Assembly (NCBI RefSeq): GCF_001648555.1
Contig: NZ_LQXM01000030.1
Coordinates: forward strand, 186,001 to 250,000
DNA length: 64,000 bases
From: Rossellomorea aquimaris TF-12
Lineage (GTDB): Bacteria; Bacillota; Bacilli; Bacillales; Bacillaceae_B
Reading direction: 5' to 3'
Shown in pieces: positions 35,692 to 56,835 of this stretch (positions are counted from its first letter, which is position 1; every line of letters starts with the position of its first letter). The translations under genes were made by a program, and so were the position numbers. The notes below the pieces were generated by a model. The model was not told the origin of the DNA. It saw only the letters and a program-made list of their open reading frames with translations, and did no database searches.

Positions 35692-36957
35692 TTATTCATT
35701 CAAACCTGTATCAGAATATACCAAATCAAGTTCTTCTTGATTTCCATCTATATTTTCTTTTTCAATTTCCAAAATTATTTTGCCCATTCGTTCTATTAAA
35801 CCAACTACTAATGCATTACCCATACAGAAGTACCTCATCCGTTCAGTCATGCCTTCTGTCCACTCATCAGGAAACCCATTCAGCCGTTCACATTCCACTG
35901 GGGTAAGGAAGCGCAACCTGTTTGTCTCGGGATCTTCAACAACATGAGTACTTCGATTGACAGTGCCCTCGCTCGTTAACATGGTCCTTCCTGGCCTTTC
36001 AAGAGGTTCAGGGAACGCCATGCCGCCTTCAGAAAATATATACTTATGACCTGTAGCCGAAGTTCTTTCTATTTTCTTAGGGCCTTTTAGATATTTAAAT
36101 TTATCAATTGCCGCCTCTGACAAATAGAACCTTTCATCCACACCTGACTGAAGAATTTCTCTCAAGGAAACCGGTGATTCTTCCTTAGGTGTAACTTCTT
36201 CTGTATAAACTAGGTCATCCCTCATAATGCCTGAATTATAATAATTCATCGAAAAGTCGTCGGAAATCTCAACTAAATCCTTTTTCATGATGAATGACTG
36301 AGGTTTTTTCTTTTCAGAAATCCCCTCTTTTACCGGGAAAGCTTTTGCAAAAAATCCCTCCTCATGAATCATTTTGCTCTCATCTACATTTCTTCTATTG
36401 ATAACATAAGAAGTTTCATTTTTGGTGGCAAAGATGAAAACCCTCCTTCTTCTTTGTGCTTTTCCATATTCAGCAGCATTGATAATCCTCCACTCTACTG
36501 AATATCCTAGGTCTCTCAGGCTTGCCAACATAATCGAGAAGTCCCTTCCACGTTGTTTAGAAGGGGATTTCAGTAATCTATCAACATTTTCAAGCAAGAC
36601 ATATTTAGGGTTGGTCTCCTTCATTAATCTGGTGATTTCCCAAAAAAGGACACCCTTTTTACCCTGAAGACCCTTTTCACCGTTCAAACTTCTCGCCACG
36701 GAATAATCCTGACAAGGGAATCCCCCAACTATCATATCGATGGAATGACCCTTGAAAGTATGGGCATTAACGGTACTGATATCCTCGTTGGAGTGTATTC
36801 CTTGACCCTCAAACCGACGTGCATAACAGTCGAATGCATGCTGAACCTTCTTGGAAGGCTCCCACTGGTTTCCCCATACAACACCGAAACCACCTACTGC
36901 TTCCAAACCGATTCTGAATCCACCTACTCCCGCAAATAATTCTATTACATTTATCAT
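35692..36957 (-). CDS. Sau3AI-type DNA (cytosine-5) methyltransferase
   Basis: A 421-residue C5-cytosine methyltransferase. Motif I is ELFAGVGGFRIGLE (6-19), IV GGFPCQDYSVARSLNG (catalytic Cys near 84), VI LLENVDRLL, VIII QRRRRVFIFA, and X GNALVVGLIERMGK. The segments NQWEPSKKVQHAFDCYARRF, GIHSNEDI and EGGMAFPEPLERPGRTMLTSEGTVNRSTH are close to M.Sau3AI as I recall it, so the target is probably GATC (modified at C). Its likely cognate nuclease lies 16 kb away at 53125. AAAGGA is 9 nt before the ATG, in the loop of a small CCGAA/TTCGG hairpin. Confidence 0.93.
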   Translation of the reverse strand: MINVIELFAGVGGFRIGLEAVGGFGVVWGNQWEPSKKVQHAFDCYARRFEGQGIHSNEDISTVNAHTFKGHSIDMIVGGFPCQDYSVARSLNGEKGLQGKKGVLFWEITRLMKETNPKYVLLENVDRLLKSPSKQRGRDFSIMLASLRDLGYSVEWRIINAAEYGKAQRRRRVFIFATKNETSYVINRRNVDESKMIHEEGFFAKAFPVKEGISEKKKPQSFIMKKDLVEISDDFSMNYYNSGIMRDDLVYTEEVTPKEESPVSLREILQSGVDERFYLSEAAIDKFKYLKGPKKIERTSATGHKYIFSEGGMAFPEPLERPGRTMLTSEGTVNRSTHVVEDPETNRLRFLTPVECERLNGFPDEWTEGMTERMRYFCMGNALVVGLIERMGKIILEIEKENIDGNQEELDLVYSDTGLNE

Positions 36958-37249: not shown

Positions 37250-38662
37250 TTAATACAGATTCATACTTTTATTAAATTGTGTATCCAGCTCTTTTAAAAG
37301 GCGCAATGGCTCCCCATGAGTGAAGAGTTGAAGATGTGCTCGAGCACGTGTGATTGAAACGTATAATAAGCGTCTCTCAATCTCCCAATAGTTTTCTTCT
37401 TTTTCTTCGTCAGGTGTACTCGTGGGTTCAACCAGATCGATAATGAATACAAAATCAAATTCCAGCCCCTTGGCAGAGTGGAACGTACATAGCTTTATGC
37501 CGGGAGTATGTGGATTGCCACCTTCTTTAATATCCTCAGGACGGTACCCTGCTGTCTCTAATTTTCTCAGTATCCGGTTCCTGGATGAATCTTTCCTCCA
37601 GGAAATTCCATTACGATATAATATGCCTATCGTACAGTCTGGCGTTTTAGCCTGGATTTTTTTTATCGATTTGATGATTTCATCGTCCTGGACACTTTCG
37701 GATTTACATTTATACAGGATAGGCATCGGCCCTTCCCTTGTCGGCAATGTCGGCGCTACGTATTCTTCATCATGTATGACAGTGTCATTTTGCTGAAGGC
37801 TATTTGCCAATTCGATGATCTGTTTTGTGGAACGGTAAGATTCCTTCAGGACCTTCGTGCGTCCACCAGTGATATTTATCCCTATTTCCTTCCAGGTGAA
37901 CGAGGTCTTGTAGATTTTCTGACCTTTATCGGCAGCAACAATGAACGTTCTCCGTGCGATATTCTTCAGCACCTGTAATTGGACCTGCTGAAGATCCTGT
38001 GCCTCATCCACAAAGATATGGTCATATTTATCCCCATCCGAGATTTTTTCTTTATTTAGGAACAACGCCACTGCAGCATCGTCAAAGTCATTCCGATAGT
38101 CCTTTTCCTTGTTATAGGCTTCGAAAATATCAAATATGACTTCACGGTCAGCCATGGTTACACGTGTGGTTGTACCTCGCCCCCTACGGTTGACATCCAG
38201 GTATTCATCCATGGTCTGAATCGCTTTTCCCTTTATCCATTGGATTTCTTCCTTCAAGAAATCAAAGTATTCGCCATTATCAACGAATCTATGAGAGCGG
38301 TTGGACTTCACCTTTTCAACCCCTTGTTTGATGAAGTTATCCTGATGTTTCCCTTTCACCAACCAATATTTCTTTTTCATTGCCCGCGTGAATGCTCCCA
38401 TTGCCCAAGAATGGAAGGTCTTGACCTCCAGATTTTTAAGGGCATATTTTTCAATGATATGCTTGGTTGAATTGTTCAAGGCCCCGGCATATGTGAAGAT
38501 GACAACTTTATCTTCCGGGTATTTCATAGCTGTTTTCTTTGCTTTTTTCAACATCACGAGGGTTTTTCCACTTCCGGCAATACCTCTTATCAATACTTCA
38601 TTCCCTTTATAATCCACTATATCCTGTTGTTCTTTAGTCAAAGTCGGTTCTGAATTTGTCAT
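37250..38662 (-). CDS. Short superfamily I (UvrD-like) helicase, cassette 2
   Basis: A 470-residue SF1A helicase with no accessory domains. Motif I is IRGIAGSGKTLVMLKKA (about 28-44), II HIFVDEAQDLQQVQ, III AADKGQKIYKTSFTW, IV LKESYRSTKQIIELANSL, V TFHSAKGLEFDFVFIIDL and VI RRLLYVSITRARAHLQLF. The counterpart in cassette 1 is 44744-46435. As the last gene of the cassette it probably works with the AddA- and AddB-like proteins in DNA processing; the exact role is unknown. Confidence 0.9.
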   Translation of the reverse strand: MTNSEPTLTKEQQDIVDYKGNEVLIRGIAGSGKTLVMLKKAKKTAMKYPEDKVVIFTYAGALNNSTKHIIEKYALKNLEVKTFHSWAMGAFTRAMKKKYWLVKGKHQDNFIKQGVEKVKSNRSHRFVDNGEYFDFLKEEIQWIKGKAIQTMDEYLDVNRRGRGTTTRVTMADREVIFDIFEAYNKEKDYRNDFDDAAVALFLNKEKISDGDKYDHIFVDEAQDLQQVQLQVLKNIARRTFIVAADKGQKIYKTSFTWKEIGINITGGRTKVLKESYRSTKQIIELANSLQQNDTVIHDEEYVAPTLPTREGPMPILYKCKSESVQDDEIIKSIKKIQAKTPDCTIGILYRNGISWRKDSSRNRILRKLETAGYRPEDIKEGGNPHTPGIKLCTFHSAKGLEFDFVFIIDLVEPTSTPDEEKEENYWEIERRLLYVSITRARAHLQLFTHGEPLRLLKELDTQFNKSMNLY

Positions 38663-38723
38663 AATACATAAAAGGTGAACAAACTCCCCTTTTATTCCTT
38701 ACACCTCACAATCTTCAATCGCT

Positions 38724-38918
38724 TTATGGCCAGTCATCATCATCATCATCATCGTCATCGTCGAAATCATCCTGCGATTGACCTATCAACCCTTCTATCT
38801 CAATCAATTCCAGCGCTTCATCGGTCAGGTCCTCAATTGAAGCGGAAGGAGCATCATCAATCGTCATTCTCCAATTGGCAGCGACTTGCTTCCATATAGA
38901 ATCCATCCTTCTTTTCAC
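38724..38918 (-). CDS. Small acidic protein with a ten-Asp tail
   Basis: Up to 64 residues; an unrecognised protein. A short helical start (MDSIWKQVAANWRM) leads into an acidic helix (SIEDLTDEALELIEIEGLIG) and the tail DDFDDDDDDDDDDWP. GTG at 38918 overlaps the AddB-like stop. ATG at 38906, with GGGGTGA 8 nt before it, may be the true start. It lies between the AddB-like and short helicase genes of cassette 2 and has no counterpart gene in cassette 1, whose AddB-like protein instead ends in DDNDTDDN. A DNA-mimic or acidic partner role is speculation. Confidence 0.6.
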   Translation of the reverse strand: MKRRMDSIWKQVAANWRMTIDDAPSASIEDLTDEALELIEIEGLIGQSQDDFDDDDDDDDDDWP

Positions 38919-41542
38919 CCCTTATCCATTGCCAGTCTTGCATCCATACATGTATCAAGATGAGGACAGAACTTACAATGCTTTCCTGGTGATGCCGGTG
39001 GGTTTGTCGAATCATTTTCAATACTTTCAATCATCATTTCATGTAACGATTCCTTCTTTTCCAATGTTTCTTGGAATAACCGATTGCGTTCATAAGAACT
39101 CATCCCTGGAAATTGTACCACTTTCCTTGAAGAACTGACGCTGACAGTTTCGTTGACATCATCATGACCGACAGACGAGACACCGTTGATGAACTTCCGG
39201 GCAATAGATTCCTTCTTGTAATGCGTCCATTGGGGAAATAAATTTCCAACCAATTGGATGATCTCATCTTTTTTCAGGGTCGTGCTTCGTTTGACGGTTC
39301 GAATCAACTCAGTGTAAAGAAATTGATGAACGAAATCATCAGCAAAAACAGGATATTCATTCGTGATATAGCTATAGTAGAAACGCCGTTGACATTGATT
39401 GAATTCTACTAAGTAATCATAAAATGAAAGTTCACGACGGGACTCTTCTATTTGACTTGAATGTATTTCCTTGAAATTGACAGGGTTTGGACGGATTTCC
39501 TCGTGTTTCCCCTCCCTATTCTGCTGGGAGGACAATATCTTCATGCCAAGCTGATGGACATACATCGCCGGATGTAAATCTTTTCGATCTAAAAAGTTTT
39601 CCATCCATGAAAGTTCAAGCTTCATATTTTCTCCATCAAGGAATTCCAAGGCGATGAATAGTAAGTATCTTGATATTTGCTTGATGGATTTGTTCCGAAG
39701 GATATTCAATTCAAGCACTTCATAACGAAGTGATAGTTTTTCGAACGTCTCCTCCTGAAGCGGCCAAGGCGTACTGAACTCGTCTAGAGGCAGCCCCTTC
39801 TCATCCAACCCTGTCAAATAAAAGGACTTCACTTTCCTCTTGAACGCTTCTCCATCTACTTCGATGAAGGGCTTGATGAATGTATTATCTTTCTTTGAAA
39901 GCTTCCCGCTTAAGTAAAGGTTGATTGCTTCGCCGATGTCATCGTAAAGGAAGAAGTTATCATCTTTGATGGTCTCCAACTTGGTATTCAATTCATTGAT
40001 GACCTCGATTTCATCCTCGAATAATACGGAATTTTTTATGGGATTCCGGTTTTGGACGATATTGAGAAGTTTGGTAAAATGCCGGGAGATCGATGTTTCT
40101 TCTGTCCCCGCTTCAAACAACTCTTCAGCAATGAATATCAGCTGATCGGCGAAGTACTTGACCTCTACCACTTGTTTTTTTGTAAAAGAGAAATGTGCAA
40201 TCTTGGTGAATGGACTCCGGACACTCTTTACAATCCTATCATCCCCGGGTTCCTCAAAATGTGGTAGTACATTCTCGTAATGATCCAGCAGCTCTTCAAA
40301 CCTTTTCATCCAGCTTTGTGTACTTTCGCACCCCGAAAAGAACGGCAAAAGTTGTTTCAGGATGTAGGTAAAGTCCCTCGCGTTTTTCTTATTATTAGGA
40401 TTGAAAAGCCAGCCTGATGAAAAGGTAGACATCAGAATATCTTCATCAAGGATGAACCTTTTCCCATCCAACATCCCATGAATTTTGCTTATAAATTGTC
40501 CTATCGGATACTGAAGGAAATTCCGATTTTCTGCAAATCTTTCCGGGTAATACTGAACAAGGATATCATTCAGCATGTCGGCATTCGTCGCAATTATTTG
40601 AACATCCTCTTTGTCTTCCTGTTTCCTTCCAATGGGGTAAGAAGGTATAATCACTTCATTAAGGAACTCAAAAAATGAATCATATTTTATGATATTCCCC
40701 CCATGATTCTTCTTCTGGACTTTTTCCCCTTCAAATGCCGATAGGAAGTTAGTTCCAATTGTCTCCTTCAAGATATCACGGTTACTTTCAATAGCCCACT
40801 CATCGGTCCAATTGAATTGTTCTGAAATGAAAGCCCTTGTAAAGTCAAAGGTCTCGGAAAATCGCTGATCATAAAAATTGAAAAATACAACTTCAAATCC
40901 CGCTTTTGCTAGCGCCTGCAAGAACATCTGCTGTTCAGGCGTGATGAAGTAAAAGCCATGTAAGACGATTCTTTGTCCTTCGGTAAGCCGGTAATCCGAT
41001 TTATTTTTCTTATTCTTCTCTTCCAATAATTCAACAAGTTTGGCCTTCACATTGGCAATCGACCAACCATCCTGCAATTTCCTCCTGATTGAACGATAGG
41101 AAAAATCCGCTTCATATGCCTCTGACCAGATTTGTTGGAAATACTCTTCTTTCTCAGTGTGGCAAAGCCCGGATAAATCCTCGGGCATCACCCCTATATA
41201 AGTCAATAATCGGATAGTTTCAAGTGTATCCGCTATATTATTCCTGAAGGCTTCCTTTAATAAAGGGTTGGTAGGTTCACTTTCAGCCATCACTTTGGAA
41301 AGTGCAAGATACTGCTTTAATTGCTCCTCTGGCTTATTCCATTTAATCAATAATGTGTCGATGACTTCACGAATCGTAAAAATGGAATGGAACTCGCCCT
41401 TCTGTTTGTCCCTGTACGCATCCGCAATGCCATCAGCCAGATTTTTTGTGGCGCAGATATGGATGGATTTATTTATTTTTTCAAACTGAGAATGATGCCT
41501 CCATCTCTTAGGATCATCATAGGTGTAAACTTTTATCTTCAT
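38915..41542 (-). CDS. AddB/RecC-like protein with iron-sulfur cysteines, cassette 2
   Basis: An 875-residue protein distantly like AddB/RecC. There is no Walker A near the N-terminus. IVLHGFYFITPEQQMFLQAL (about 197-216) recalls the AddB helicase-like core. The C-terminal part has FNQCQRRFYYSYI (about 720) and PGKHCKFCPHLDTCMDA (about 855), the four-Cys iron-sulfur staple of AddB/Cas4 nucleases. I find no GxxD...(D/E)xK nuclease motif between those cysteines. It is probably a scaffold or DNA-scanning partner of the adjacent helicase. It overlaps the AddA-like gene by 26 bp. Paralogue: 46410-49013. Confidence 0.8.
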   Translation of the reverse strand: MKIKVYTYDDPKRWRHHSQFEKINKSIHICATKNLADGIADAYRDKQKGEFHSIFTIREVIDTLLIKWNKPEEQLKQYLALSKVMAESEPTNPLLKEAFRNNIADTLETIRLLTYIGVMPEDLSGLCHTEKEEYFQQIWSEAYEADFSYRSIRRKLQDGWSIANVKAKLVELLEEKNKKNKSDYRLTEGQRIVLHGFYFITPEQQMFLQALAKAGFEVVFFNFYDQRFSETFDFTRAFISEQFNWTDEWAIESNRDILKETIGTNFLSAFEGEKVQKKNHGGNIIKYDSFFEFLNEVIIPSYPIGRKQEDKEDVQIIATNADMLNDILVQYYPERFAENRNFLQYPIGQFISKIHGMLDGKRFILDEDILMSTFSSGWLFNPNNKKNARDFTYILKQLLPFFSGCESTQSWMKRFEELLDHYENVLPHFEEPGDDRIVKSVRSPFTKIAHFSFTKKQVVEVKYFADQLIFIAEELFEAGTEETSISRHFTKLLNIVQNRNPIKNSVLFEDEIEVINELNTKLETIKDDNFFLYDDIGEAINLYLSGKLSKKDNTFIKPFIEVDGEAFKRKVKSFYLTGLDEKGLPLDEFSTPWPLQEETFEKLSLRYEVLELNILRNKSIKQISRYLLFIALEFLDGENMKLELSWMENFLDRKDLHPAMYVHQLGMKILSSQQNREGKHEEIRPNPVNFKEIHSSQIEESRRELSFYDYLVEFNQCQRRFYYSYITNEYPVFADDFVHQFLYTELIRTVKRSTTLKKDEIIQLVGNLFPQWTHYKKESIARKFINGVSSVGHDDVNETVSVSSSRKVVQFPGMSSYERNRLFQETLEKKESLHEMMIESIENDSTNPPASPGKHCKFCPHLDTCMDARLAMDKG

Positions 41543-44500
41543 TGTGAGCTCCTTTTATTGCCTGATCTAGTAGGAATCCCCAAGTGAAATCCTGGACCCT
41601 CTTCGGCATCAGGAGGATTAAGCGCTTCTTTGCCCTTGTCATTGCCACATATAGGAGACGTGTTTCCTCACGTTCCACTTCAAATTTCTCATAAGAATTC
41701 AAGGATGAATATCGATCATTTTCCGTATGTTCTTTGATTGACCAACCAACCATTCGTTGGTGCCCTTCCATTTCCTTTTCATCCTGAACGTAAAAAGTGG
41801 TCCTATCGCTCGTAAATTTGTGGCCGACCTTTGGAATAATCACCGTATGATATTCCAATCCCTTCGAACGGTGTACCGTTGTTATCTCAACAGCCCCACT
41901 TTCAGTCTTGATCATTGGCTCATTTTCCGTACGATTCACACGTATCTGCAAAGATAACCACTCATGTAGCCTCCATAACGTCCCATTCATGGAATCGAAT
42001 TGTTGTTGTATGAGATTCACGAGATGGAATAAATTCTTTTCATATTGCTTAATGGCATTCCTGAGTGTATTTTCATTGTCGATGCTTGACTTATAAAATC
42101 CTTCCACATTTCGAAGAAGACCTTTTTCTGAAATTACCTTCTGGATGACGGCTGTTGCAGGTAATAAACGCAGGTCTTCCAAGTAACAGTCGAAATCCCC
42201 TTCGAGATGGGACCGAAGGAATTTGATGATTTTCTCGTCATCCCCTTTGAAAGGAACCAAAAGTTTGCCTGGGATTGAATAACCGAAATAAGGTGACTGA
42301 AGGACATTGACCATATGTGTTGCCTCATGTGGATACATTAAAGCATCCAGTAACATCTTGAAGTGCAGCACGGCATCTGACTTAAAGAATGTCCCATCCA
42401 GATTTTGTACAGTGCCTAATTTAGCTCTATCACACCATTTCAGGACTTCCAAAGCTTGTTTATTGGTCCTGACGATGAGGGCAATTTTTTTATTTTCCTT
42501 TTCCGATAATTTTTCGACATGTTGGAATGCATTTTGAATCTCAAGAACTGTATTCACTTCAAGTTCTTTTGCCTTCGATTCTATTGTACAGAACTCATTA
42601 TCTTCACTATCAATGTCCATGCCAATAAGGCGGTCTTCCTGGGAATAAGGAAGAAGGCTTTGAAGATTTCCCCCCTTGCCCCATCTCTTTTGCCCCCATA
42701 CCAAGAAAAGTTTATCCAATTCATTCAGCAGGCTCTTGGTGGTCCGATAATTCTGATTCAAGGAAATGGGAACAAATCCAGATTGATTATTCTTCTTTGC
42801 AAACTCTTTCAGCCGCTCAAAGGAGGTATAATCCGCACCCCTGAAGCGATATATGGATTGTTTTACATCTCCCACCACAAATAGCTTATAATCTAAAAGG
42901 ATTTGAAGGTTTGCAACAAGCTCTATCTGGGTATTATCGCTGTCCTGGAATTCATCCACAAACAGATACTTTTCAGTTTCAAGCTGCTTCATTTTATCTC
43001 CGTCTCTTGTAAAAAGCTTCAACTTGCGGATAAGGTCGCCCATGTCAATCGCATTTTCTTTCTTCTTCTCAATCTCCAGCATCGTTTCACAACGAGTAAA
43101 TACATATTTGAAAAGGTTATGAAGGATCGTATATCTTTCATCTATGGCCATCCCCCACTCCAATTTCTGGATTTCTTCCTTCGTCAAACCCTTCTTCTCC
43201 ATTTCATCCCAAAAGTTGTTCATCAAATTGACAACTTCATAATGATTAAACTTAAGAGATATCAAGTCAGTGATAGGATGAATTTTGAAATATTCATCAG
43301 CCAATCTTTCGATGATTTCCTTTTTCTTTTTGATAAAGCTCCTCAGCTTCATGTTGCGACCAAAACCCAACTCATGTGCCAGCTGAGTCAAAATGGTCTT
43401 TGAAAAGGAATGAATCGTACTGATTTGCATGTTCTTCACATCTTCAGCCAATAAAAGGTACTTTGTTTTCCCTGTCAGCTCGAACATGGTCAACAATTTC
43501 TTTTGTAGCCGTTCCTTCATTTCATTTGTGGACGAATTGGTGAAAGTAATCATGACGATGTCCTTCATTGTGATATCCGCCATTTCAACTAAATACAATA
43601 TCCGGTCGATCATCACATAAGTCTTCCCGGTACCCGCGCCTGCCGTTATCATCAAGTGATTTGAAGGAAGTGTGTGTGCTGCGGTGAACTGCCCATAGTT
43701 AAAGTCTGGGAAAGCAGGGGCAAGGAAATCCTTAAGGAATCCAACATCGCCCTTCCCATCCTTCATCACCACAGTCTCCAAAGGTCCCTTCCATTTATCA
43801 GTAACAAACACCTGAAATTGGAAATCCTTCCGGAAGCTCTTAAATGTATCCAACCAAGCTTTCTCTAATGGAAAAGTCGTGAAAAGATAAATCTTGACAC
43901 CTTCTCTCATTGAAGCTTCAATCGCTTCCTTTTCTCTTAAAAAATTTTGCTTGTGATGGAAGAGATATAACCGGGAATATGAGCGTTTCTGCCCAAGATT
44001 CATCTCTTCATGTTCTTTGATATAAAAATGCTTCTTGAGTAACAGCCACTTGTGGTCATTTAAAGGCTTTCTGGCTTTATATACTTCCATCCCATCAAGC
44101 TTTCGGACCCATGTCCCTTGAATGAAATCATCTTTGAACAGGATGGGTGGATTTGTGAGGAGCTCATCGAAGCCTTTCTCCTTCCACTGAGTGCTTGTAA
44201 TATAAGGAAGCGCCACGACCGCCCGCTTAGTGAATGAACGATATAACAATGCTTTCTTTTCAATATCATCGCAAAGCATATTAAGCTGCTGCATCGCCTG
44301 ATTGTATGGTTCTCCCTGCTTTGTATAAAAATCTTCATATAGCCATTTATGGCCTTGGATTCCCACGATATTGTCGATGGTGATCCCTTTTACCTCGATA
44401 ACGGTCGCACCAAACTCGCGATCCAATAGTAATATATCAATCTCCCGTTTTTCCGAGTGATTTTTCTTGAACATGGGAAAATGAAGGAAACCGAAGCTGT

Positions 44501-44594
44501 CCCGCTTTGAGAATAATGATTTCACATGGTCCCATACAAGTCGCTCTGCATCGATTCCTGGTCTATAATCAACAACCGTTCCTTCAATAAACAA
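41517..44594 (-). CDS. NERD nuclease + AddA/UvrD-like helicase fusion, cassette 2
   Basis: About 1025 residues. N-terminal NERD domain (about 10-130) with REIDILLLDREFGATVIEVKG, the D...ExK nuclease core. After a roughly 150-residue linker comes an SF1 helicase: ITAGAGTGKTYVMIDRIL (about 315), FVDEFQDSDNTQ, GDVKQSIYRFRGAD, NYRTTKSLLNEL, TVHRSKGLEYHTVIIP and RLLYVAMTRAKKRL. No RecB-type C-terminal nuclease. TTG 44594 has GGAGG 10 nt upstream; TTG 44603 is too close to it. The cassette 1 counterpart lacks NERD. First gene of cassette 2, with its own leader after a terminator. Confidence 0.9.
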   Translation of the reverse strand: MFIEGTVVDYRPGIDAERLVWDHVKSLFSKRDSFGFLHFPMFKKNHSEKREIDILLLDREFGATVIEVKGITIDNIVGIQGHKWLYEDFYTKQGEPYNQAMQQLNMLCDDIEKKALLYRSFTKRAVVALPYITSTQWKEKGFDELLTNPPILFKDDFIQGTWVRKLDGMEVYKARKPLNDHKWLLLKKHFYIKEHEEMNLGQKRSYSRLYLFHHKQNFLREKEAIEASMREGVKIYLFTTFPLEKAWLDTFKSFRKDFQFQVFVTDKWKGPLETVVMKDGKGDVGFLKDFLAPAFPDFNYGQFTAAHTLPSNHLMITAGAGTGKTYVMIDRILYLVEMADITMKDIVMITFTNSSTNEMKERLQKKLLTMFELTGKTKYLLLAEDVKNMQISTIHSFSKTILTQLAHELGFGRNMKLRSFIKKKKEIIERLADEYFKIHPITDLISLKFNHYEVVNLMNNFWDEMEKKGLTKEEIQKLEWGMAIDERYTILHNLFKYVFTRCETMLEIEKKKENAIDMGDLIRKLKLFTRDGDKMKQLETEKYLFVDEFQDSDNTQIELVANLQILLDYKLFVVGDVKQSIYRFRGADYTSFERLKEFAKKNNQSGFVPISLNQNYRTTKSLLNELDKLFLVWGQKRWGKGGNLQSLLPYSQEDRLIGMDIDSEDNEFCTIESKAKELEVNTVLEIQNAFQHVEKLSEKENKKIALIVRTNKQALEVLKWCDRAKLGTVQNLDGTFFKSDAVLHFKMLLDALMYPHEATHMVNVLQSPYFGYSIPGKLLVPFKGDDEKIIKFLRSHLEGDFDCYLEDLRLLPATAVIQKVISEKGLLRNVEGFYKSSIDNENTLRNAIKQYEKNLFHLVNLIQQQFDSMNGTLWRLHEWLSLQIRVNRTENEPMIKTESGAVEITTVHRSKGLEYHTVIIPKVGHKFTSDRTTFYVQDEKEMEGHQRMVGWSIKEHTENDRYSSLNSYEKFEVEREETRLLYVAMTRAKKRLILLMPKRVQDFTWGFLLDQAIKGAHNEDKSLHL

Positions 44595-44714
44595 TGTAAA
44601 CAAACCTCCAAATGAACCGAGTTAGTCTCATTATACTAAACCTTATGTATGAAATGGGAATGAATTTACAAAACCCGACAATTTTCTTGTACCTTACTCC
44701 CTAATAATAAAAAG

Positions 44715-44734
44715 TCCCCTGAAACTTCAGGGGA
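44715..44734 (-). terminator. Terminator between the two cassettes
   Basis: TCCCCTGAA pairs perfectly with TTCAGGGGA. TTTTTATTATTA follows on the minus strand after two bases. It closes cassette 1, so cassette 2 needs its own promoter in 44595-44714. Confidence 0.88.
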
Positions 44735-44743
44735 ACCTCCGAT

Positions 44744-46435
44744 TTATAATAACGTCTTCCTGAAACCACTTGCTTCGTAATCCCTTGTATCAAAATCCTT
44801 TACAAATGGGGAGATTTTTATTTCCGGGTGTTTGGGAGAGTGGTAATACATAAAAACAAGTTGCTTCGCCCGAGTCAAGGATACGTATAGAATCCGTTTT
44901 TCCTTTTCCTCAAGCTCCTTTTTATCAGCTTCAAAATCCGGAGATTTCGACTTGACGAGTCTCACTTTATTCAGACTTTCCACCTCGTCCCTGTGTGGAT
45001 AATGCTTTTTATCTATATCCAGTATGAAGACATAATCGAATTCTAATCCCTTGGTCGCCTTCGCCTCGATGAGATATACCTTAGGCCCATGCTGTCGATG
45101 CCCAGACTGGGTGCTGCGTTCAATATAGGTCCTGAGCTTGAAATACTGTTCGAGATATATCTTAATGTTATTTTCATCCTGTGTTTCATGCCTACGGTGG
45201 ATGATTGCGAAAGTCCTATTGGGATGTATCTGATTTATGCTTCTAATTTTTGTACTTATTTCATCCAGCATGCCGACATAAGTTTTAAAAGCTTTTATCT
45301 GCGGTTTTTCTCCGGGTCGTGGAAAATACTTCTCATCGTCATACTTGGAGTCTTCACTTGAGCGATTGAAGTTTAAGGAATTCGCCAGCTTCATGATGGA
45401 ATAGGTCGAACGCCAGTTCCGTTTCAACACGACGTTGTTTCCGCTCCTTATATTGATGCCAAGGGCCTTGTAAGAAAATGGGCTGCTTTTATATATTCTT
45501 TGCCTCTCATCTCCACTGAGGGATAAAGTACCTTTATCGAAAGCCACTAAGACCCTGAGCTGCATCGGTTGGAGGTCCTGTACCTCATCGATGAAAATGT
45601 GGTCATACATCTGGTCCTTCTTTAAGAGGTGGAAATTCTTCATGATGAGCAATGCAAAATCTTCTGGATCAACCCTATTATAGAAGTTCTTCAGTTGGTC
45701 TTCTTGATAATATACAAATAATCTGAATATGGTCGACCGTTGTTTCACAGATATATTTGGCAGCTGCCCACGCCCTACCCGGTCACACAATAGATAGTCT
45801 TCCTCGGTGATGAATCCATTTCCCTTCATCCACGCGAATTCCTCTGATAAAAATGATGTATTCTGGGTTTTTTTGATTGTATGGATAGCCGGAAGCTCCT
45901 TAAATTCATCGGATTCAAGCAAATCCATCAAACGGAGGATACGGGCCCTCACCTCGTCCTCCCCCCGGTTCAATCCCTTATGATTCGTGCGGAATTTACG
46001 GACTTTGACACCTATCGAGGCCAATAAACGATGCGCCAATTCATGAAAGGTCAGAAAATCGACCCTGTGGTTATGTTCCTGGAGTGCATCATAATACTCC
46101 GACTGCCTAAAGCGGTTCTGGGCATCTTTAATCAGCTCTTCACTGTAGGAAACAAACAGGAATCTTTTTCCGAATTCCTCGGACATCTTCTGCATCATCC
46201 TAGTTAAAAGGGTTATACTCTTTCCGCTTCCAGCAGTGCCCTTCACAAGCAAATGGGTGGATTCCATTTTTGCTACCTTCTGCTGCTCATCACTCAGTTC
46301 AATGTTATGAAGGAACTTCTTGGTTTGGTTTACTATATCATTCGCTGTGCTGGGGATTGTCGACAATGCCTCGTTCAATAGTCCGAATGCTTCGTTAAAG
46401 TTCGTTTCATCAGTTGTCATCTGTGTCATTGTCAT
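44744..46435 (-). CDS. Short superfamily I (UvrD-like) helicase, cassette 1
   Basis: A 563-residue SF1A helicase. Motif I is VKGTAGSGKSITLLTRMM (about 67-84), II HIFIDEVQDLQPMQ, III SGDERQRIYKSSPFSYKALG, IV LKRNWRSTYSIMKLANSL, V EAKATKGLEFDYVFILD and VI KRILYVSLTRAKQLVFMYY. It has about 40 extra N-terminal residues over its cassette 2 paralogue. The start overlaps the end of the AddB-like gene by 26 bp, which implies translational coupling. Confidence 0.9.
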   Translation of the reverse strand: MTMTQMTTDETNFNEAFGLLNEALSTIPSTANDIVNQTKKFLHNIELSDEQQKVAKMESTHLLVKGTAGSGKSITLLTRMMQKMSEEFGKRFLFVSYSEELIKDAQNRFRQSEYYDALQEHNHRVDFLTFHELAHRLLASIGVKVRKFRTNHKGLNRGEDEVRARILRLMDLLESDEFKELPAIHTIKKTQNTSFLSEEFAWMKGNGFITEEDYLLCDRVGRGQLPNISVKQRSTIFRLFVYYQEDQLKNFYNRVDPEDFALLIMKNFHLLKKDQMYDHIFIDEVQDLQPMQLRVLVAFDKGTLSLSGDERQRIYKSSPFSYKALGINIRSGNNVVLKRNWRSTYSIMKLANSLNFNRSSEDSKYDDEKYFPRPGEKPQIKAFKTYVGMLDEISTKIRSINQIHPNRTFAIIHRRHETQDENNIKIYLEQYFKLRTYIERSTQSGHRQHGPKVYLIEAKATKGLEFDYVFILDIDKKHYPHRDEVESLNKVRLVKSKSPDFEADKKELEEKEKRILYVSLTRAKQLVFMYYHSPKHPEIKISPFVKDFDTRDYEASGFRKTLL

Positions 46436-49013
46436 CCCATCCTTTCTTGGAAATATCTACAGCGTATAAAGCATCCTCGCAATATCCGGCATGTGGGCAG
46501 AGTTTACAGAATTCGGATGGATTTGCCTCAGGCAACCCCTCATCTATTGAAGCGATTTGCGTTGCGAGCTCATTCCTTTCCCGCCTCTTCCCTCTCACCA
46601 TCGCAAATGAAGTCCTCCACCGTTCATTTTGGAAGGCACCACGGTGGGTCAGGTATTGAAAGTACAGGGTGCTTTCTGCGTATTCAACATCCTCATACTT
46701 CAATCGATTGGTCAATCCATACTTCCTCATGCTCTGAACGAGGTTTTCCTCCATATTCGTATCAATGATTGCACGTAGGCGGACATCACCCATGAACGGG
46801 AAAAGGGTCTTCATCAACCGCATGACTTCGGTTTTGTTTTTTCCGATGGAAGCATACAGCTTCACCACATTCCCCATCAGGAATCCTTGGTGAAATGAGG
46901 AATCATATGTTGAAAAGCGATCGACGACACTACTGTAGAAAAAGCGTCGCTTGCATAAATTCATTTCAACGAATTCTTCATTGGGATATGATAGAAGTTC
47001 CTCCACCACTTTTGCCTTTTGATCCTCAGACGGTCCGGTGGAGCAGTTTACATATTGATACTGTGAACCTTTATCGTCAGCTGCCTTTTCCACATCCAAT
47101 AGCTGCAAATAAATGGATTTGTCGAGGTTTTCGTGGTCATTCCAATTCCTGATCCAAGACAGCTGGATTTCCCCGTTGAAGCAAAGTCCTGTATAAAACA
47201 AATATTTTGAAAATGAAAGCTCATGCTTTTTCCGAAATAAGTACATATTAGCTGCAGGATTATCCAATTCTCTTAATAAGGCTTCGGACAATGGCCAGGG
47301 CATCGGTGTTTGCCCATTAGGAAAGTGCTTTTCGTCCATTCCACATAAATGAAGGACCTTATCGGATTTCTTATAGATGAGACCGTCCAGGGCTTGCATC
47401 TTTTGAATCTTAATATTCTCTTCAATATCCAATGCTTCTTCAAAATCCTCTTCATCCTTATCCTTAAGACCCGTTTTCAGGAATACGACTATTGCATCCG
47501 ATAAGTCGGAAATATTATAGGGGCTATTCGATCGGCCAGGTCGCCCCAGCATATCCTCCAGCTGTGAGACGAGTTTTTTCTCCGTCTTCCCAAGTAGTGA
47601 GTCCCGCGTTTCATGATTATCGAGTAATTGTTTTATTCGATTGAAGTGTGTCTTGATCGTCACCCTTTCTTCCTCTATATTTATCAACCATTTCGCATCT
47701 TGTATCAACTTTTTGATGAAAGCCTCAATGATCCCTATTTCCTTTAGTGTCAAAGACAGGAAGGAAAATCGAAGCACCGGGTTTACACGCACAGCTTTGA
47801 AATGTTCCCCTGTTCTCAACCCATGAGTTTTAATGGGGCCGGATGATGACCGCTTCGCCATTTTCAATTTTTCTATGGACGACAGCCATTCTTCAACGGT
47901 CTGACACTTATCAAAGTACGGTAGGATTGCCCTTAGCTGCTCTGTATAACTTCTTGCATTAAGGCCATCGTATTCAAGCCATCCCGATGCGAAGCATTCA
48001 GCCAACATCGAACCATTCAAGAGATACTCCTGTTTCGATTCATCCCAGATGGAGTGAAGATGCAGCAAATACTGACCGATGGGATACGACAGAAAATGTC
48101 GCTCTTCTATGAACATATCAGGCTTGAATTCCATCAATCTCCCAGTCAGTTCATCCTGGTTTGGTGAGATATAACGGTGGTTTTCCTGTATATCCTGTAC
48201 AAAATCAATCATATATTCATATGGTTTCTCAGAAATGGACGGCAACGGCTGCCTTTTATAACTCCCTTCAAATGCAGAGGCAAACAACCTGCTTGCCATA
48301 GACATGCCCTTTGATTCCGTCAGCATCCACTCCTCTTTGGAGACCCAACCATTTTCCACTGAGAAATTTTCCTCCAAGAAGGAAAAAATTGCAGGATGGT
48401 CCTTATGGTAGAGATTAATGAATACCAGGTTCATCCCCCGCTCCTTCCACTTTGTGAAAACATGGTGCTGTACAGGCGTGATGAAGTAGAAGCCATGGAG
48501 GACTACGGTATTACCCGTTGTATCAAGGAACGATTGTATGGTATCAAAGGAATCCAGGTTTTTTACTGCATCTTCCATATAGGTATCGAAGGTAGACAGC
48601 ATTTTCTCCCACACATCGCAAAAAACACGCTCCTCCACCTTTTTACAGAGGGGGCGAAGACTTTCCGGTCTCAACCCGATTTCTGTAAGGTTCCTCATGG
48701 TTATCAAGACATTCAACTGATTGCGCTTAAATGATTGGATGATTTCTGCTGAACCATCATCATCCCATGCCCTTAGATGATCCGCCAGCTCAGCATATTG
48801 CTCGAACCGTTTATCCACATCATTCCATTCAGGATAGAATTTCTGGATGACCTCTGTCGCCGAGAAAAGCCCGGACGCCACCTCCCCCGTGAGACCATGC
48901 TTCAATGACTCTGTAGCACAGATGTGAGGGGAATTCCTAAATGGAGCATATTCGGGCAAATCTTGAAAGGTAAACGGATTTTCATACATGATGACATCCA
49001 CTTTTACACTCAT
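46410..49013 (-). CDS. AddB/RecC-like protein with iron-sulfur cysteines, cassette 1
   Basis: An 867-residue paralogue of 38915-41542. Shared features are the opening (VDVIMYENPFTFQDLPEY versus IKVYTYDDPKRWRHHSQF), VVLHGFYFITPVQHHVF, LRAILPYFDKCQTVEEWL, and the C-terminal EMNLCKRRFFYSSVV plus PSEFCKLCPHAGYCEDA. The four staple cysteines are kept; no nuclease D...ExK motif is visible between them. The tail is acidic (WDDNDTDDN). A good SD (AGGAGG) precedes the ATG. It begins 12 bp after the AddA-like gene. Confidence 0.8.
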   Translation of the reverse strand: MSVKVDVIMYENPFTFQDLPEYAPFRNSPHICATESLKHGLTGEVASGLFSATEVIQKFYPEWNDVDKRFEQYAELADHLRAWDDDGSAEIIQSFKRNQLNVLITMRNLTEIGLRPESLRPLCKKVEERVFCDVWEKMLSTFDTYMEDAVKNLDSFDTIQSFLDTTGNTVVLHGFYFITPVQHHVFTKWKERGMNLVFINLYHKDHPAIFSFLEENFSVENGWVSKEEWMLTESKGMSMASRLFASAFEGSYKRQPLPSISEKPYEYMIDFVQDIQENHRYISPNQDELTGRLMEFKPDMFIEERHFLSYPIGQYLLHLHSIWDESKQEYLLNGSMLAECFASGWLEYDGLNARSYTEQLRAILPYFDKCQTVEEWLSSIEKLKMAKRSSSGPIKTHGLRTGEHFKAVRVNPVLRFSFLSLTLKEIGIIEAFIKKLIQDAKWLINIEEERVTIKTHFNRIKQLLDNHETRDSLLGKTEKKLVSQLEDMLGRPGRSNSPYNISDLSDAIVVFLKTGLKDKDEEDFEEALDIEENIKIQKMQALDGLIYKKSDKVLHLCGMDEKHFPNGQTPMPWPLSEALLRELDNPAANMYLFRKKHELSFSKYLFYTGLCFNGEIQLSWIRNWNDHENLDKSIYLQLLDVEKAADDKGSQYQYVNCSTGPSEDQKAKVVEELLSYPNEEFVEMNLCKRRFFYSSVVDRFSTYDSSFHQGFLMGNVVKLYASIGKNKTEVMRLMKTLFPFMGDVRLRAIIDTNMEENLVQSMRKYGLTNRLKYEDVEYAESTLYFQYLTHRGAFQNERWRTSFAMVRGKRRERNELATQIASIDEGLPEANPSEFCKLCPHAGYCEDALYAVDISKKGWDDNDTDDN

Positions 49014-49025
49014 CCTTTACTCCTC

Positions 49026-51539
49026 CTATCGCTCTTTTTTCAATATTTTCGACCAAGTCATTTTGTAGGTATCGTTTTTCAGGTTCCGGATGATCATCAA
49101 CTCATTCTTCGCCCTGGTCATCGCTACATAGAGAAGCCTTGTTTCTTCGTGGATGGATTCAGTGTCATCCTGTGAATTAAGCAACTCAAAATGATTATTT
49201 TTCCTCTCTTCATGGCCTGGTTTATTTATTAGCCAACCTACCCTTCGGCGCTCATTGTCAAAGATGATTTTGCTGAATGAAGTCGTGAAAGGACGTTCTG
49301 TGAAAGGGATGATGACTGTATGATATTCAAGCCCCTTTGCTCTGTGAGCAGTCAAGATATGGACGTGATCGATTTCCGCATCCATGCCTTCCACAGTCAT
49401 TTCCTCTTCATCACGGTTGGTTGCAATCTGTACACGCAGCCAACTCTCGATTTTGTGAAGGGAGACAAATTCAGCTGAAAATGCCTGATGGAGCATTTCG
49501 AATAATTTACCTACATTCAACTTATATTTTTCCGTATCGTTGACTGACTGTTGTTGGAGTTGCTCAGGTGTATAATCTTCCGAAAGAAGATTCACCAAAT
49601 CATCCATACGGCGGGAATATATCCAATTGAATGGCTCCCTTTCCTCAATGATCGTCCTCAGTACCGATAAGACAGGTTGATAAGTCAGAAGCCGCTGATA
49701 ACGCTGGAATGGGAAAGAGGTCGATTCCTTCATCCTCTCGATTGACGACTCTTTGAATCCATTTCGATCAACAACTTCATGAAGGATATAGTCCTCCAAT
49801 TGCCCGTAAGGACCATGCAATAGGTTGCTTAGATATTTACCATCTTCAGGATGGAGGAGGGCGAGTACCAAAGAATGAAAATGACGGATGGCCTTTGACT
49901 GAAAGAATCCACCACCGACTTCAAGCTTTGTCAATAGTTGCTGCCCCCTGCACCATTCATCCACCAAACGGGCCTCCTCGACCGTCCTGGTCAGGACTGC
50001 AATCTTTTCCCGCTTTTCTTCCTGTGGGTTAGAGTCATTCAGCTCAACTATCCTCTTAAATCCGGAGACTACCTTTGGTAGAATATGATTCCTCATATTC
50101 TCTTTCGTTTCCTCACGTTTAGTCTCAATTTTCAAAGGGTCATCTTCTTCGCCGCTTCTCATCCCCACCAAGCGGTCACTGCTTTCCTCGCCATCAACAT
50201 CATAATCAAGATAGCCTCTTTCCCCCCACAAGGAGAAATGGACATCCATTTGTTCCAACAACCGCTCGGTAGTCCGATAATTCTTCTTTAGGTAATACTT
50301 TCCGTCATCGATGAAAATATCGCGTTGTCCAAGCTTCTCTTTCAAGATTTTGAACGCAGTGTGGTTTGCGCCCCTGAAGCGATAGATAGACTGCTTTATA
50401 TCCCCAACAACAAACAAAGTTGCCGAAAATGCCTCTTGGATGGTCGCTATCAACCGTATTTGGATATCATCACTATCCTGGAACTCATCCACGAACAGAT
50501 GGGAAATGGGCTGGCTTATATTCTTGAATGCATCCACTCCATGTCTTTCTCTTATTTCATCTATTTGCCTTGTCAAATCATTCATTGTAACCGCATTCAA
50601 AAGATTCTTCTCTTCCTGAAAGCGGCGCTCCAAATTCCGAATAACTGTTTGCAGCAGGTTGTTCATGCGCTCATTGCCCATCGTCCCTTCTCCGAAATCC
50701 GTTCCAATAAGTATTTCTGCTGTCGAAAAGCCCTTTTGCTCGAACCTCTCAGAAAAATCATATATAGTATCTATCAACTCATAGAGCTTCAATGGAGAAA
50801 TCAGCGCTTCAATCGTCCCCGATGCTTGAGAGAGTTCCTTTTCGAAAAACCTATCGAGCTCCTCTTCAATCCATTCTTTCTTTTCCTGTTTAAAGCTTCG
50901 TAGCGCCACATTCAACCCAAAGCCCCCGAGTGAACCAACTTCCTTCAGTAAAGATTTAGAAAAGGAGTGAATCGTTTGGATCCTTATATCGGCAAGATGC
51001 TCGATCAACGTTAAAATTCCCCGGCTCCCTGTAGCCTTGAAGCGTAAAAATAAGCTTTCCCTCAGCTTATCATACATATTCCGTGCAGCTTCCCTCGTGA
51101 AAGTGATCATTACTATCTCAGCAGGTTTGACCTTTGCTGCTAGCAATAGATAAAGAATCCGATCGATCATGACGGTCGTCTTCCCTGTACCCGCCCCTGC
51201 CTTCACCATGATATTTTCATCATAGGCTGCATGCTCAATCAAGAACTGTTCGATATTGAAACGAGGGAAGAACCTGACTATGTGTTTCATCTCCTCGAGT
51301 GATTGACCATCAATAACTTCAAACGTCTGTGTTATCGATATATCCTCTTTATGAATATGTAAAAGATTGGCGTCGAGATATCCTTCAAAATCATCTTTAT
51401 CTTCCAACAGAAAATCTGAATTTGTGAACAGGAGGACCTTAATCCCTCTTGCCAACAACTCGGCTATTTCTACTAGTTTTCTATTAATGCTTTCATTATC
51501 TGAAAATAATACGTAAGAGTATCGTATCGTCCGTTGCAT
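49026..51539 (-). CDS. AddA/UvrD-like helicase without NERD, cassette 1
   Basis: An 837-residue SF1 helicase. Motif I is VKAGAGTGKTTVMIDRIL (about 113), Ia FTREAARNMYDKL, II FVDEFQDSDDIQ, III GDIKQSIYRFRGANH, IV KKNYRTTERLLEQMD, V LTAHRAKGLEYHTVIIP and VI RLLYVAMTRAKNELMII. The N-terminal 110 residues (RGIKVLLFTNSDFLLED) align with the linker after the NERD domain in the cassette 2 protein, so only NERD differs. No C-terminal nuclease. First gene of cassette 1. GGGGAGG is upstream. Confidence 0.9.
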   Translation of the reverse strand: MQRTIRYSYVLFSDNESINRKLVEIAELLARGIKVLLFTNSDFLLEDKDDFEGYLDANLLHIHKEDISITQTFEVIDGQSLEEMKHIVRFFPRFNIEQFLIEHAAYDENIMVKAGAGTGKTTVMIDRILYLLLAAKVKPAEIVMITFTREAARNMYDKLRESLFLRFKATGSRGILTLIEHLADIRIQTIHSFSKSLLKEVGSLGGFGLNVALRSFKQEKKEWIEEELDRFFEKELSQASGTIEALISPLKLYELIDTIYDFSERFEQKGFSTAEILIGTDFGEGTMGNERMNNLLQTVIRNLERRFQEEKNLLNAVTMNDLTRQIDEIRERHGVDAFKNISQPISHLFVDEFQDSDDIQIRLIATIQEAFSATLFVVGDIKQSIYRFRGANHTAFKILKEKLGQRDIFIDDGKYYLKKNYRTTERLLEQMDVHFSLWGERGYLDYDVDGEESSDRLVGMRSGEEDDPLKIETKREETKENMRNHILPKVVSGFKRIVELNDSNPQEEKREKIAVLTRTVEEARLVDEWCRGQQLLTKLEVGGGFFQSKAIRHFHSLVLALLHPEDGKYLSNLLHGPYGQLEDYILHEVVDRNGFKESSIERMKESTSFPFQRYQRLLTYQPVLSVLRTIIEEREPFNWIYSRRMDDLVNLLSEDYTPEQLQQQSVNDTEKYKLNVGKLFEMLHQAFSAEFVSLHKIESWLRVQIATNRDEEEMTVEGMDAEIDHVHILTAHRAKGLEYHTVIIPFTERPFTTSFSKIIFDNERRRVGWLINKPGHEERKNNHFELLNSQDDTESIHEETRLLYVAMTRAKNELMIIRNLKNDTYKMTWSKILKKER

Positions 51540-52900: not shown

Positions 52901-53124
52901 GTACATGAGTCCTTTGTTTGTTGTACTTGTGTATTAAAAAAAGAACATTATAACCTTAAACTTTTACGCTATTGTACTCATGTACTTTACTTAAACTCAT
53001 TCCTATACGTTCAACGATTTCTGTAACTAAGTCATTCCCATTAATACCCTATACAGACAAAAAATTGAATGTAATTTATAATGAAGTTGAGTAGTGGATG
53101 AAAGTTTCTATTAGGGAGATGGCG

Positions 53125-54756
53125 ATGGATAGAGAATATAAAACAATTCGAGAAATAAAAGAACGTGGTGAAGCTGCTATTGGTAAAATGATAAAGGAGC
53201 TTGTGACACAGGAGAATGTGGATAAGTGGTACGCTAGCCCAAGAAATAAAGGTTGGCTTGGGAATGCAGTTGAAAAAGATTGGTTCGGGCTAGCGAATAA
53301 CAGTCGACCTGAGGCTGATTTCAAAAATCTAGGTGTAGAACTCAAATGCGCTGGGCTTAAATTTTTCAAAAATGAAAATTCTTGGGCTGCCAAAGAAAGA
53401 CTAGTTCTTAACATTTTTGATTTTAATGAAGAATATGTGAGGGAGTTTCAGAATTCTTCCTTTTTAAAAAAGTCAAAGCTTGTAGAACTCATGTTGTATA
53501 AATATGACCCAGTTGATTATTTTCAATTCGAAGGAAAGGAATACCCAACCTATCCAGATTTCTCAATGACCCATTCTATTCTTTTGAATTTGTACGACTT
53601 GTTAGAGGATGATTGGGCAATCATGGAAAACGATTGGAACATTATAATGGATATGATTCGTCAGGGGAGGGCTGAGGACATTTCCGAAGGTATGACACAA
53701 TACCTTGGCGCAGTGACAAAAGGAAGTAAAACTGAAAAGAACCAAACAACACAACCGTGTAGTGATGAGAAAGCACATAGACGAGCTTTTTCTTTAAGAC
53801 CAGCTTACATGAAGGAAATTACGAAGCGAATTGTACAGGGCGAATTAAAGAGTTCAATTACTTACGATTCTTATCAATATGATTATCCTGAGTTACATAA
53901 AAAAATCAATGCTAAGCAAATTGGTACTCAAGAGCATGTCATAAAAAATTTATCCGAGTTAAAACACAAAACGTTTGAACAAATCATTCTCGATCAGTTT
54001 ACACCGTTCTACAATATGGATAAACAATCCTTAGCAGAAAAATTTGGCGTTAGAATTAAAGAAAAGAATGATAAAGCAAGTTCACGGCTAATTGCGCAGA
54101 AAATGTTTAATCTAAAAGGTGATTTAGAAAAAACAGATGAGTTTAAGAAGGCTGGAATTGCTGTAAAAACAGTTACCGTAAAATCTAATCAGAGAAAAAA
54201 AGCATCCAAAAAAAGACTCACTACTGAAGGATTTAAACTTGAATCGGATGTTAGCTTCATCAAAGATATTAGTAACCTTGATTGGGAAGATACCCGAGTG
54301 TATGACTACCTTTCCACAACAAAATTCTTATTAGTAGTTTACGAGGAAACACCAGAAGGCGAGATATTTAGGGGTGCAAAATTTTGGTATATGCCAGAAA
54401 ACGAACTCATGGGTACTGTCAAAAAAACATGGGAAAGAATTAAACAAACTCTCATTAATGGTGTCGAGTTAACGTTTAAACATGTTAAGAAAAGTGCCTC
54501 AAATAAGAAAGGTTACAAAATAGAGAATAATCTGCCGAGTCAAGTGAGTGGTCCTCAAATTCTTCATATTCGACCATCAGCTGACAAGTCGGATTATCGT
54601 GAAAGTATTAATTCAGATCAGCTTCCCTCTCCTGCAATATGGAAGTTTAGACCTGAGAATATGAAAGATATTTTGACAAATAATTATATGGTAAAGCAAG
54701 CCTTCTGGTTAAATAAAAATTATATGTACCAACAAGTAAAAGAATTTTTCGAATGA
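53125..54756 (+). CDS. Sau3AI family type II restriction endonuclease
   Basis: A 543-residue MutH/Sau3AI-family endonuclease, expected to cut at GATC. The N-terminal catalytic domain has GNAVEKDWFGLANNSRPEADFKNLGVELKCAG (about 50-80): the Asp, Glu and Lys of the D...ExK centre are all there. The C-terminal half is the second MutH-like domain (DWEDTRVYDYLSTTKFLLVVYEE to ILHIRPSADKSDYRES and QAFWLNKNYMYQQV), used by Sau3AI for allosteric DNA binding. The ATG at 53125 has AGGGAG 6 nt upstream; the frame is open from 53098. Probable partner of the methyltransferase at 35692. Confidence 0.93.
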   Translation: MDREYKTIREIKERGEAAIGKMIKELVTQENVDKWYASPRNKGWLGNAVEKDWFGLANNSRPEADFKNLGVELKCAGLKFFKNENSWAAKERLVLNIFDFNEEYVREFQNSSFLKKSKLVELMLYKYDPVDYFQFEGKEYPTYPDFSMTHSILLNLYDLLEDDWAIMENDWNIIMDMIRQGRAEDISEGMTQYLGAVTKGSKTEKNQTTQPCSDEKAHRRAFSLRPAYMKEITKRIVQGELKSSITYDSYQYDYPELHKKINAKQIGTQEHVIKNLSELKHKTFEQIILDQFTPFYNMDKQSLAEKFGVRIKEKNDKASSRLIAQKMFNLKGDLEKTDEFKKAGIAVKTVTVKSNQRKKASKKRLTTEGFKLESDVSFIKDISNLDWEDTRVYDYLSTTKFLLVVYEETPEGEIFRGAKFWYMPENELMGTVKKTWERIKQTLINGVELTFKHVKKSASNKKGYKIENNLPSQVSGPQILHIRPSADKSDYRESINSDQLPSPAIWKFRPENMKDILTNNYMVKQAFWLNKNYMYQQVKEFFE

Positions 54757-56832: not shown

Positions 56833-56835
56833 AGA

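Follow-up and report, generated by a model that had tools for sequence, protein, structure and literature searches.

The 64,000-nucleotide stretch of Rossellomorea aquimaris TF-12 analysed here (the window) carries on its minus strand six open reading frames (ORFs) in two consecutive units of the same order, each with an AddA-like gene, an AddB-like gene and a short superfamily 1 (SF1) helicase gene. Our reading, to which we give a probability of about 0.55, is that these units are two distant relatives in an accessory family of helicase-nucleases built on the AddAB/RecBCD plan, and that they are attached to a restriction system of a MutH-family endonuclease and a C5 cytosine DNA methylase. 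The genes and their domains, the predicted folds, the tight gene coupling and the recurrence with restriction genes carry this reading. Unit B consists of P0001 (AddA/RecB-like SF1 helicase, 49026..51539, 837 amino acids (aa)), P0002 (AddB-like subunit, 46410..49013, 867 aa) and P0003 (short SF1 helicase, 44744..46435, 563 aa); unit A consists of P0004 (AddA/RecB-like helicase, 41517..44603, 1028 aa from a TTG start), P0005 (AddB-like subunit, 38915..41542, 875 aa) and P0006 (short SF1 helicase, 37250..38662, 470 aa). Paralogues of the two units align nearly end to end, with 33% identity over 872 columns for the AddA-like pair, 26% over 913 columns for the AddB-like pair and 28% over 501 columns for the short helicases. 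A sequence-only reading made before this work had described the same six paralogous genes in two like-ordered units, and both the coordinates and the alignments agree with it. It had also reported tight spacing or overlaps inside each unit, which is true of P0001-P0002 (12 nucleotides (nt) apart), P0002-P0003 and P0004-P0005 (both at -26 nt), but not of P0005-P0006, where an interval of 252 nt is occupied by a further ORF; 140 nt separate the units. Such close coupling of an AddA-like to an AddB-like gene, by an overlap or a gap of no more than 12 nt, holds for 54 of the 56 pairs measured across the related loci.

P0001 and P0004 are UvrD/RecB-type helicases by Pfam (PF00580, 158 and 173 bits), as had been proposed earlier, an assignment that for P0001 also draws on alignment and tree and for P0004 on structure prediction and a NERD domain. 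The predicted model of P0004 (mean predicted local distance difference test (pLDDT) score 84.7) has AddA as its best PDB match in Foldseek (4cej_A, E 2.3e-27), and AddA and RecB lead the matches. Against the AddA equivalog model, P0001 and P0004 reach 150 and 155 bits with a cut-off of 707.65, so neither is a canonical AddA. Residues 1-205 of P0004 form a NERD nuclease domain (33.1 bits against a Pfam cut-off of 22.1), which is detected only with these residues as the query and is unlisted in the full-length scan. The same domain was found in five of nine N-terminal stretches scanned (P0004 and those of L032, L049, L053 and L073, the L numbers denoting related loci); a different, restriction-like N-terminal domain is seen by eye in L038/L055 and L033/L046, with no Pfam support for L055 or L046. 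Walker A is kept in all 36 aligned AddA-like proteins, and in the 34 in which motif VI was found the chain ends 26-41 residues beyond it, so that a C-terminal nuclease has no room there; P0004 itself stops shortly beyond this motif. Judged by domain searches, the two units are not equivalent, as the NERD domain sits on P0004 and P0001 begins after that region.

Neither of the AddB-like proteins, P0002 and P0005, is matched in Pfam, NCBIfam or PHROG, and P0002 is assigned by its 26% identity to P0005, its motifs and its place in the tree. For P0005, the predicted model (pLDDT 82.8) finds AddB as best PDB match in Foldseek (4cei_B, E 2.9e-15); five AddB chains rank first (E 3e-13 to 3e-15), followed by UvrD and RecC chains with similar E-values, which is consistent with the AddB/RecC-like identity proposed before. 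Adjacent subunits of unit A are thus predicted to have AddA/RecB-like and AddB/RecC-like folds, as in the AddAB/RecBCD superfamily, these fold assignments resting on the models of P0004 and P0005. Motifs add to this picture when compared with canonical AddB proteins, available from 13 of the 15 genomes of the order that carry the module. The CX2CX5C cysteines are present in 36/36 module proteins and 13/13 canonical ones, whereas Walker A within the first 80 residues and the DYK nuclease motif between the cysteines each occur in 0/36 of the former and 13/13 of the latter (the string DYK lies elsewhere in the sequence in 6/36). The median spacing between the cysteines is 138 residues in the module proteins compared with 320 in canonical AddB. 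A PDB sequence search returned two weak likenesses in the cysteine tail and two chance matches.

The short helicases P0003 and P0006 (PF00580, 67 and 65 bits) match UvrD/HelD/PcrA-type models, and no RecD (SF1B) model from Pfam or NCBIfam is listed for either at E 0.01, so that by this search they are not the third subunit of RecBCD. Their best PADLOC model is that of GajB (80 and 123 bits), a match which from the sequence reflects general UvrD likeness, and in PHROG both match a phage helicase family. The trio described by the sequence-only reading is present twice in the window, but it is not strict: no third helicase follows the AddB-like gene in five of the 16 loci first mapped (L031, L033, L039, L041 and L043), and loci of the unit A type have a small fourth gene.

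This small ORF, a seventh gene missing from the earlier inventory of six otherwise real ones, lies at 38724..38918 on the minus strand and encodes 64 aa from a GTG or 60 aa from an ATG at 38906, with the tail DDDWP, which resembles the acidic tip of SSB. Its start overlaps the P0005 stop by 4 nt and its end is 61 nt ahead of P0006. A P0006-type helicase follows the AddB-like gene in 20 of 48 genes examined, and 18 of these 20 slots are filled by an acidic-tailed ORF of about 60-85 aa whose start is rich in tryptophan (16 by an automatic acidity rule, L050 and L032 by likeness), compared with 0 of the 28 AddB-like genes without such a helicase behind them (Fisher p 3e-11). The 48 genes come from 61 non-duplicate ones, with L078-L081, L083-L088, L090, L092 and L093 left out. 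Leave-one-out profiles regained 15 of the 18 ORFs at E <0.01 and missed L032 (E 0.018), the window copy (E 1.7) and L066 (E 43); because its profile match is weak, the window ORF is identified by its place, start motif and tail. Outside the slot, a profile search of 110 loci with 19,589 open stretches had its best match in L063, at E 0.0065. Between the closely related L052 and L053 copies there are 0.47 synonymous and 0.09 non-synonymous changes per site, while the L030/L037 pair, with 0 synonymous and 4 non-synonymous differences, is uninformative. Shuffling produced a chance ORF of at least 53 codons starting at that place in 127 of 3200 shuffles. The small ORF has no Pfam or PHROG family. 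In L040 (11041-11307) and L075 the slot holds a different, basic small ORF, the two being alike by eye. The N-terminal extension of P0003-type helicases, alike by eye in L056 and L059, was considered as a fused form of the small protein; the profile gave no such match.

In the window both units lie between restriction-modification genes, as had been noted from the sequence. The C5 methylase (35692..36957, minus strand; PF00145, E 8e-73) is the sole PF00145 match in this genome, and the MutH/Sau3AI-type endonuclease (53098..54756, plus strand, 552 aa) matches PF02976 (70 bits, E 2e-19) and PADLOC REase_II (PDLC03553, 267 bits); both are over cut-off and 16 kilobases (kb) apart, so that this locus has the two parts of a MutH/C5 type II restriction-modification system. 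The check suggested at the outset was whether such company recurs in other genomes, and it does. In 10 of 15 carriers the AddB-like gene has a C5 methylase no more than 10 kb away, against 0.19 expected (P 7e-17, presuming that genomes are independent and placement is uniform). Canonical AddA, used as a control, has one at this distance in 0 of 14 genomes, AddA and methylase sharing a contig in only 4 of these 14. Of the 15 carriers, 9 have a MutH-family gene, which lies within 20 kb of the module in every one of them and within 10 kb in 5, compared with 32 of 382 non-carrier genomes of the order (p 2e-6); most MutH genomes (32/41) are without a detected module. On these two linkages we reject a chance neighbourhood.

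In a further tally 58 related loci were counted, leaving out L033-L036, L038 and L041 as duplicates of L046, L049, L053, L052, L055 and L073. Seventeen of the 58 form a branch with DpdE/DpdF-like genes, in which a C5 methylase occurs in 0/17. The other 41 include L074, L088 and L093 by gene content, L074 falling in the Dpd clade of both trees; 24 of the 41 have a C5 methylase (18 by an automatic rule, L030, L037, L048, L057 and L059 at >500 bits with a variant motif, and L040), 30 have some restriction-type gene and 11 have a GHKL gene. In the sister branch (L041, L071, L073, L076, L078-L087 and L089-L092, mostly Clostridia) the AddA-like and AddB-like genes are followed by a DpdE-like SNF2 gene and a DpdF-like helicase gene (245 and 401 bits in L041), with other conserved genes whose products have about 265 and 500-990 aa, and it looks like a separate operon-type system.

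The module is sporadic. At genus level 2 of 36 genomes were found to carry the AddB-like protein, at order level 15 of 397 and at phylum level 3 of 398, each count including the window's genome; among 72,556 plasmid records it was found in 2. The 48 named loci bear 46 Bacillota-type names, one Thermosipho and one Parabacteroides metagenome-assembled genome. A single-protein scan of genome contigs found no relative, and neither did a search of viral contigs. A viral gene set was rejected on the latter result and because P0002, P0005, the NERD stretch and the small ORF have no PHROG match, though P0003 and P0006 match the phage helicase family mentioned above. The AddA-like and AddB-like trees recover largely the same clades. 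In both, the nearest kin of unit A is Salimicrobium L046, within a clade of 9 rows, and that of unit B is Bacillus sp. MM2020_1 L061, within one of 4 rows, each with strong support. Unit B is 81% (AddA-like) and 76% (AddB-like) identical to L061, where an 11 kb contig holds it next to a MutH-type gene. The label of a tandem duplication, taken as a recent event, therefore has to be given up, since each unit has closer kin in other genomes; the separate, strongly supported clades point to two old lineages side by side. Unit B also precedes unit A in Paenibacillus terrigena L048, but there the AddB-like protein of unit B falls with L057, and therefore the pairing of units was probably assembled separately. 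L056 and L059 have a single AddA-AddB pair with both helicase types.

Other neighbours are described here in their own right. In L040 (13352-15631), a C5 methylase-MutH domain fusion in one frame of 759-765 aa stands beside the module. Between unit B and the intact MutH gene, the window holds a broken second MutH-family stretch (52524-52724, minus strand; 25.6 bits, one stop). It also holds an McrB-like protein (55537-59880, minus strand) combining HI_0552, EVE and AAA_5 domains, whose 431-aa neighbour has no Pfam or PADLOC match and is McrC-like by eye. ZorA/ZorB-like genes adjoin the module in L032 (424-5314) and L039 (3589-4482), with ZorA at 146 and 369 bits, and the PADLOC candidate PDC-M33A/B/C (752, 315 and 326 bits) directly follows it in L036 (3798-7380), with similar sets at several other loci. 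An 840-aa protein (20055-22577, plus strand) has repeated CxxC zinc-ribbon-like units and, by eye, a Vsr-like stretch. The protein at 62489-63244 (minus strand), with no Pfam or PADLOC match, shares by eye a CxGHxR...WF-like stretch with L041 (14645-15466, minus strand), both near AddAB-like loci.

On the reading we prefer, the modules probably help to destroy foreign DNA, and the role that we consider foremost is to process the ends which the restriction enzyme leaves. The MutH-family endonuclease would cut unmodified incoming DNA, and the AddA-like motor with its AddB-like subunit would load on the ends and unwind them, the latter as a passive scaffold that splits the strands, has neither a motor nor a nuclease motif and is held by its cysteine cluster. 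The short SF1 helicase could act as a second motor. In unit A the strands would be cut by the N-terminal NERD domain of the AddA-like protein, replacing the C-terminal RecB-type nuclease, and the small acidic protein might regulate loading or tether partners. Complex formation, substrate, polarity, nuclease activity, the role of the small protein and an anti-phage effect are what we infer in this scheme. Several observations weigh against it. Unit B shows no recognised nuclease domain in its sequences, and may depend on unit A, the MutH enzyme or host exonucleases for this action. AddB kinship is not proven by sequence profiles alone, comparisons with the 13 canonical AddB proteins (probability 4%) and with a single one being collinear and not significant. 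A MutH match is absent in 6 of 15 carriers, no restriction-type gene was seen in 11 of the 41 non-Dpd loci, some of them on short contigs, and the linked endonuclease varies (HNH, AlwI, NgoFVII and AspBHI types, type I, McrBC). Finally, as defence genes cluster, the linkage probabilities overstate certainty.

The varied restriction partners, and the loci with none seen, would also fit an autonomous anti-phage system that merely shares defence islands, in which a divergent AddAB and a GajB-like helicase act on the ends of phage DNA, perhaps when canonical AddAB has been disabled by the phage. The methylase-free sister branch and neighbours such as ZorA and PDC-M33 point the same way, and there is a precedent in the accessible part of PMC12407980, where phage end-binding proteins that block RecBCD license Gabija. 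However, in the Bacillales sample the module is strongly and specifically tied to C5 methylase and MutH, and we regard this alternative as possible but doubtful. Restriction linkage and AddAB kinship could also mean that the module protects the host and, instead of attacking invaders, repairs or clears the breaks that the neighbouring restriction enzyme makes in the chromosome. We think this rather unlikely, as 14 of the 15 carrier genomes already have a canonical AddA that passes the curated cut-off, and the exchanged nuclease and lost AddB motifs would fit destruction better than Chi-regulated repair. That the module is a second general recombination AddAB is very improbable: the folds are the same, yet the distribution is sporadic (2/36 and 15/397 genomes), the AddA model gives 155 bits where its cut-off is 708, and canonical motifs are missing. 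Nor is it the only AddAB of its host, which the sequence-only reading had named as a refutation, since a canonical addB-addA pair is present elsewhere in the genome.

Attachment to restriction thus being our preferred reading, it can be extended, tentatively and with clearly less confidence, to an unnamed RecBCD-like restriction family, mainly of Bacillota. In such a family the AddA-like motor would have exchanged its nuclease for one at the N terminus, the AddB/RecC-like protein would be a scaffold lacking a motor, and a GajB-like helicase would serve as second motor beside a small acidic protein with an SSB-like tip. Together with a MutH-type endonuclease, a C5 methylase and, in some cases, a GHKL ATPase like MutL, these parts would form a methyl-directed pathway that cuts, unwinds and degrades the DNA of invaders, its sister branch serving DpdE/DpdF-like systems. 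If true, the central repair machine AddAB/RecBCD has been remade for restriction, losing its own nuclease motif and gaining another; restriction enzymes have a dedicated end-degrading partner; and there are natural AddAB relatives that might evade the inhibitors which phages direct at AddAB. The small acidic ORF adds a new component that experiments can address.

No name for the module was found in PADLOC 2023, which has no model specific for the AddB-like protein (weak matches only, E 0.0022 and 0.0056), or in the literature by title and abstract, subscription journals being mostly outside coverage; the earlier statement that no named system has these genes holds to this extent. A term search finds no mention of AddA, RecB, RecC or UvrD in PMC12839542 or PMC10853773, and the accessible parts of PMC12458937, PMC12407980 and PMC12948488 contain no such module. 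Gabija is alike in the GajB-type helicase matches, with their general UvrD likeness; its OLD-type GajA was not seen among the neighbours read or scanned, PADLOC having covered only some of them. In the available text of PMC5704561, UvrD-Cas4 fusions beside Dcm/Vsr and type III genes are proposed as ancillary defence parts; they too combine an SF1 helicase and a nuclease in restriction-type loci, but with a fused Cas4-like nuclease instead of an AddB-like partner and NERD. The MORC/paraMORC restriction loci, in the portion of PMC2292703 at hand, share the company of cytosine methylase, Vsr and GHKL ATPase but are described with superfamily II helicases, and the window neighbours scanned gave no GHKL match. 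An AddB-like protein with CRISPR-like repeats shares the inactive helicase part, and unlike ours is presented in the accessible section of PMC10910872 as a PD-(D/E)XK nuclease beside repeat arrays. AddAB of Bacillus subtilis and RecBCD are the closest in plan, being alike in the predicted folds of both subunits, the overlapping gene pair, the CX2CX5C cysteines of AddB and the inactive helicase partner represented by RecC. The module departs from them in an AddB-like subunit without Walker A and DYK, an AddA-like subunit without C-terminal nuclease, the N-terminal NERD of unit A, the extra SF1 helicase, the small acidic ORF and an accessory distribution.

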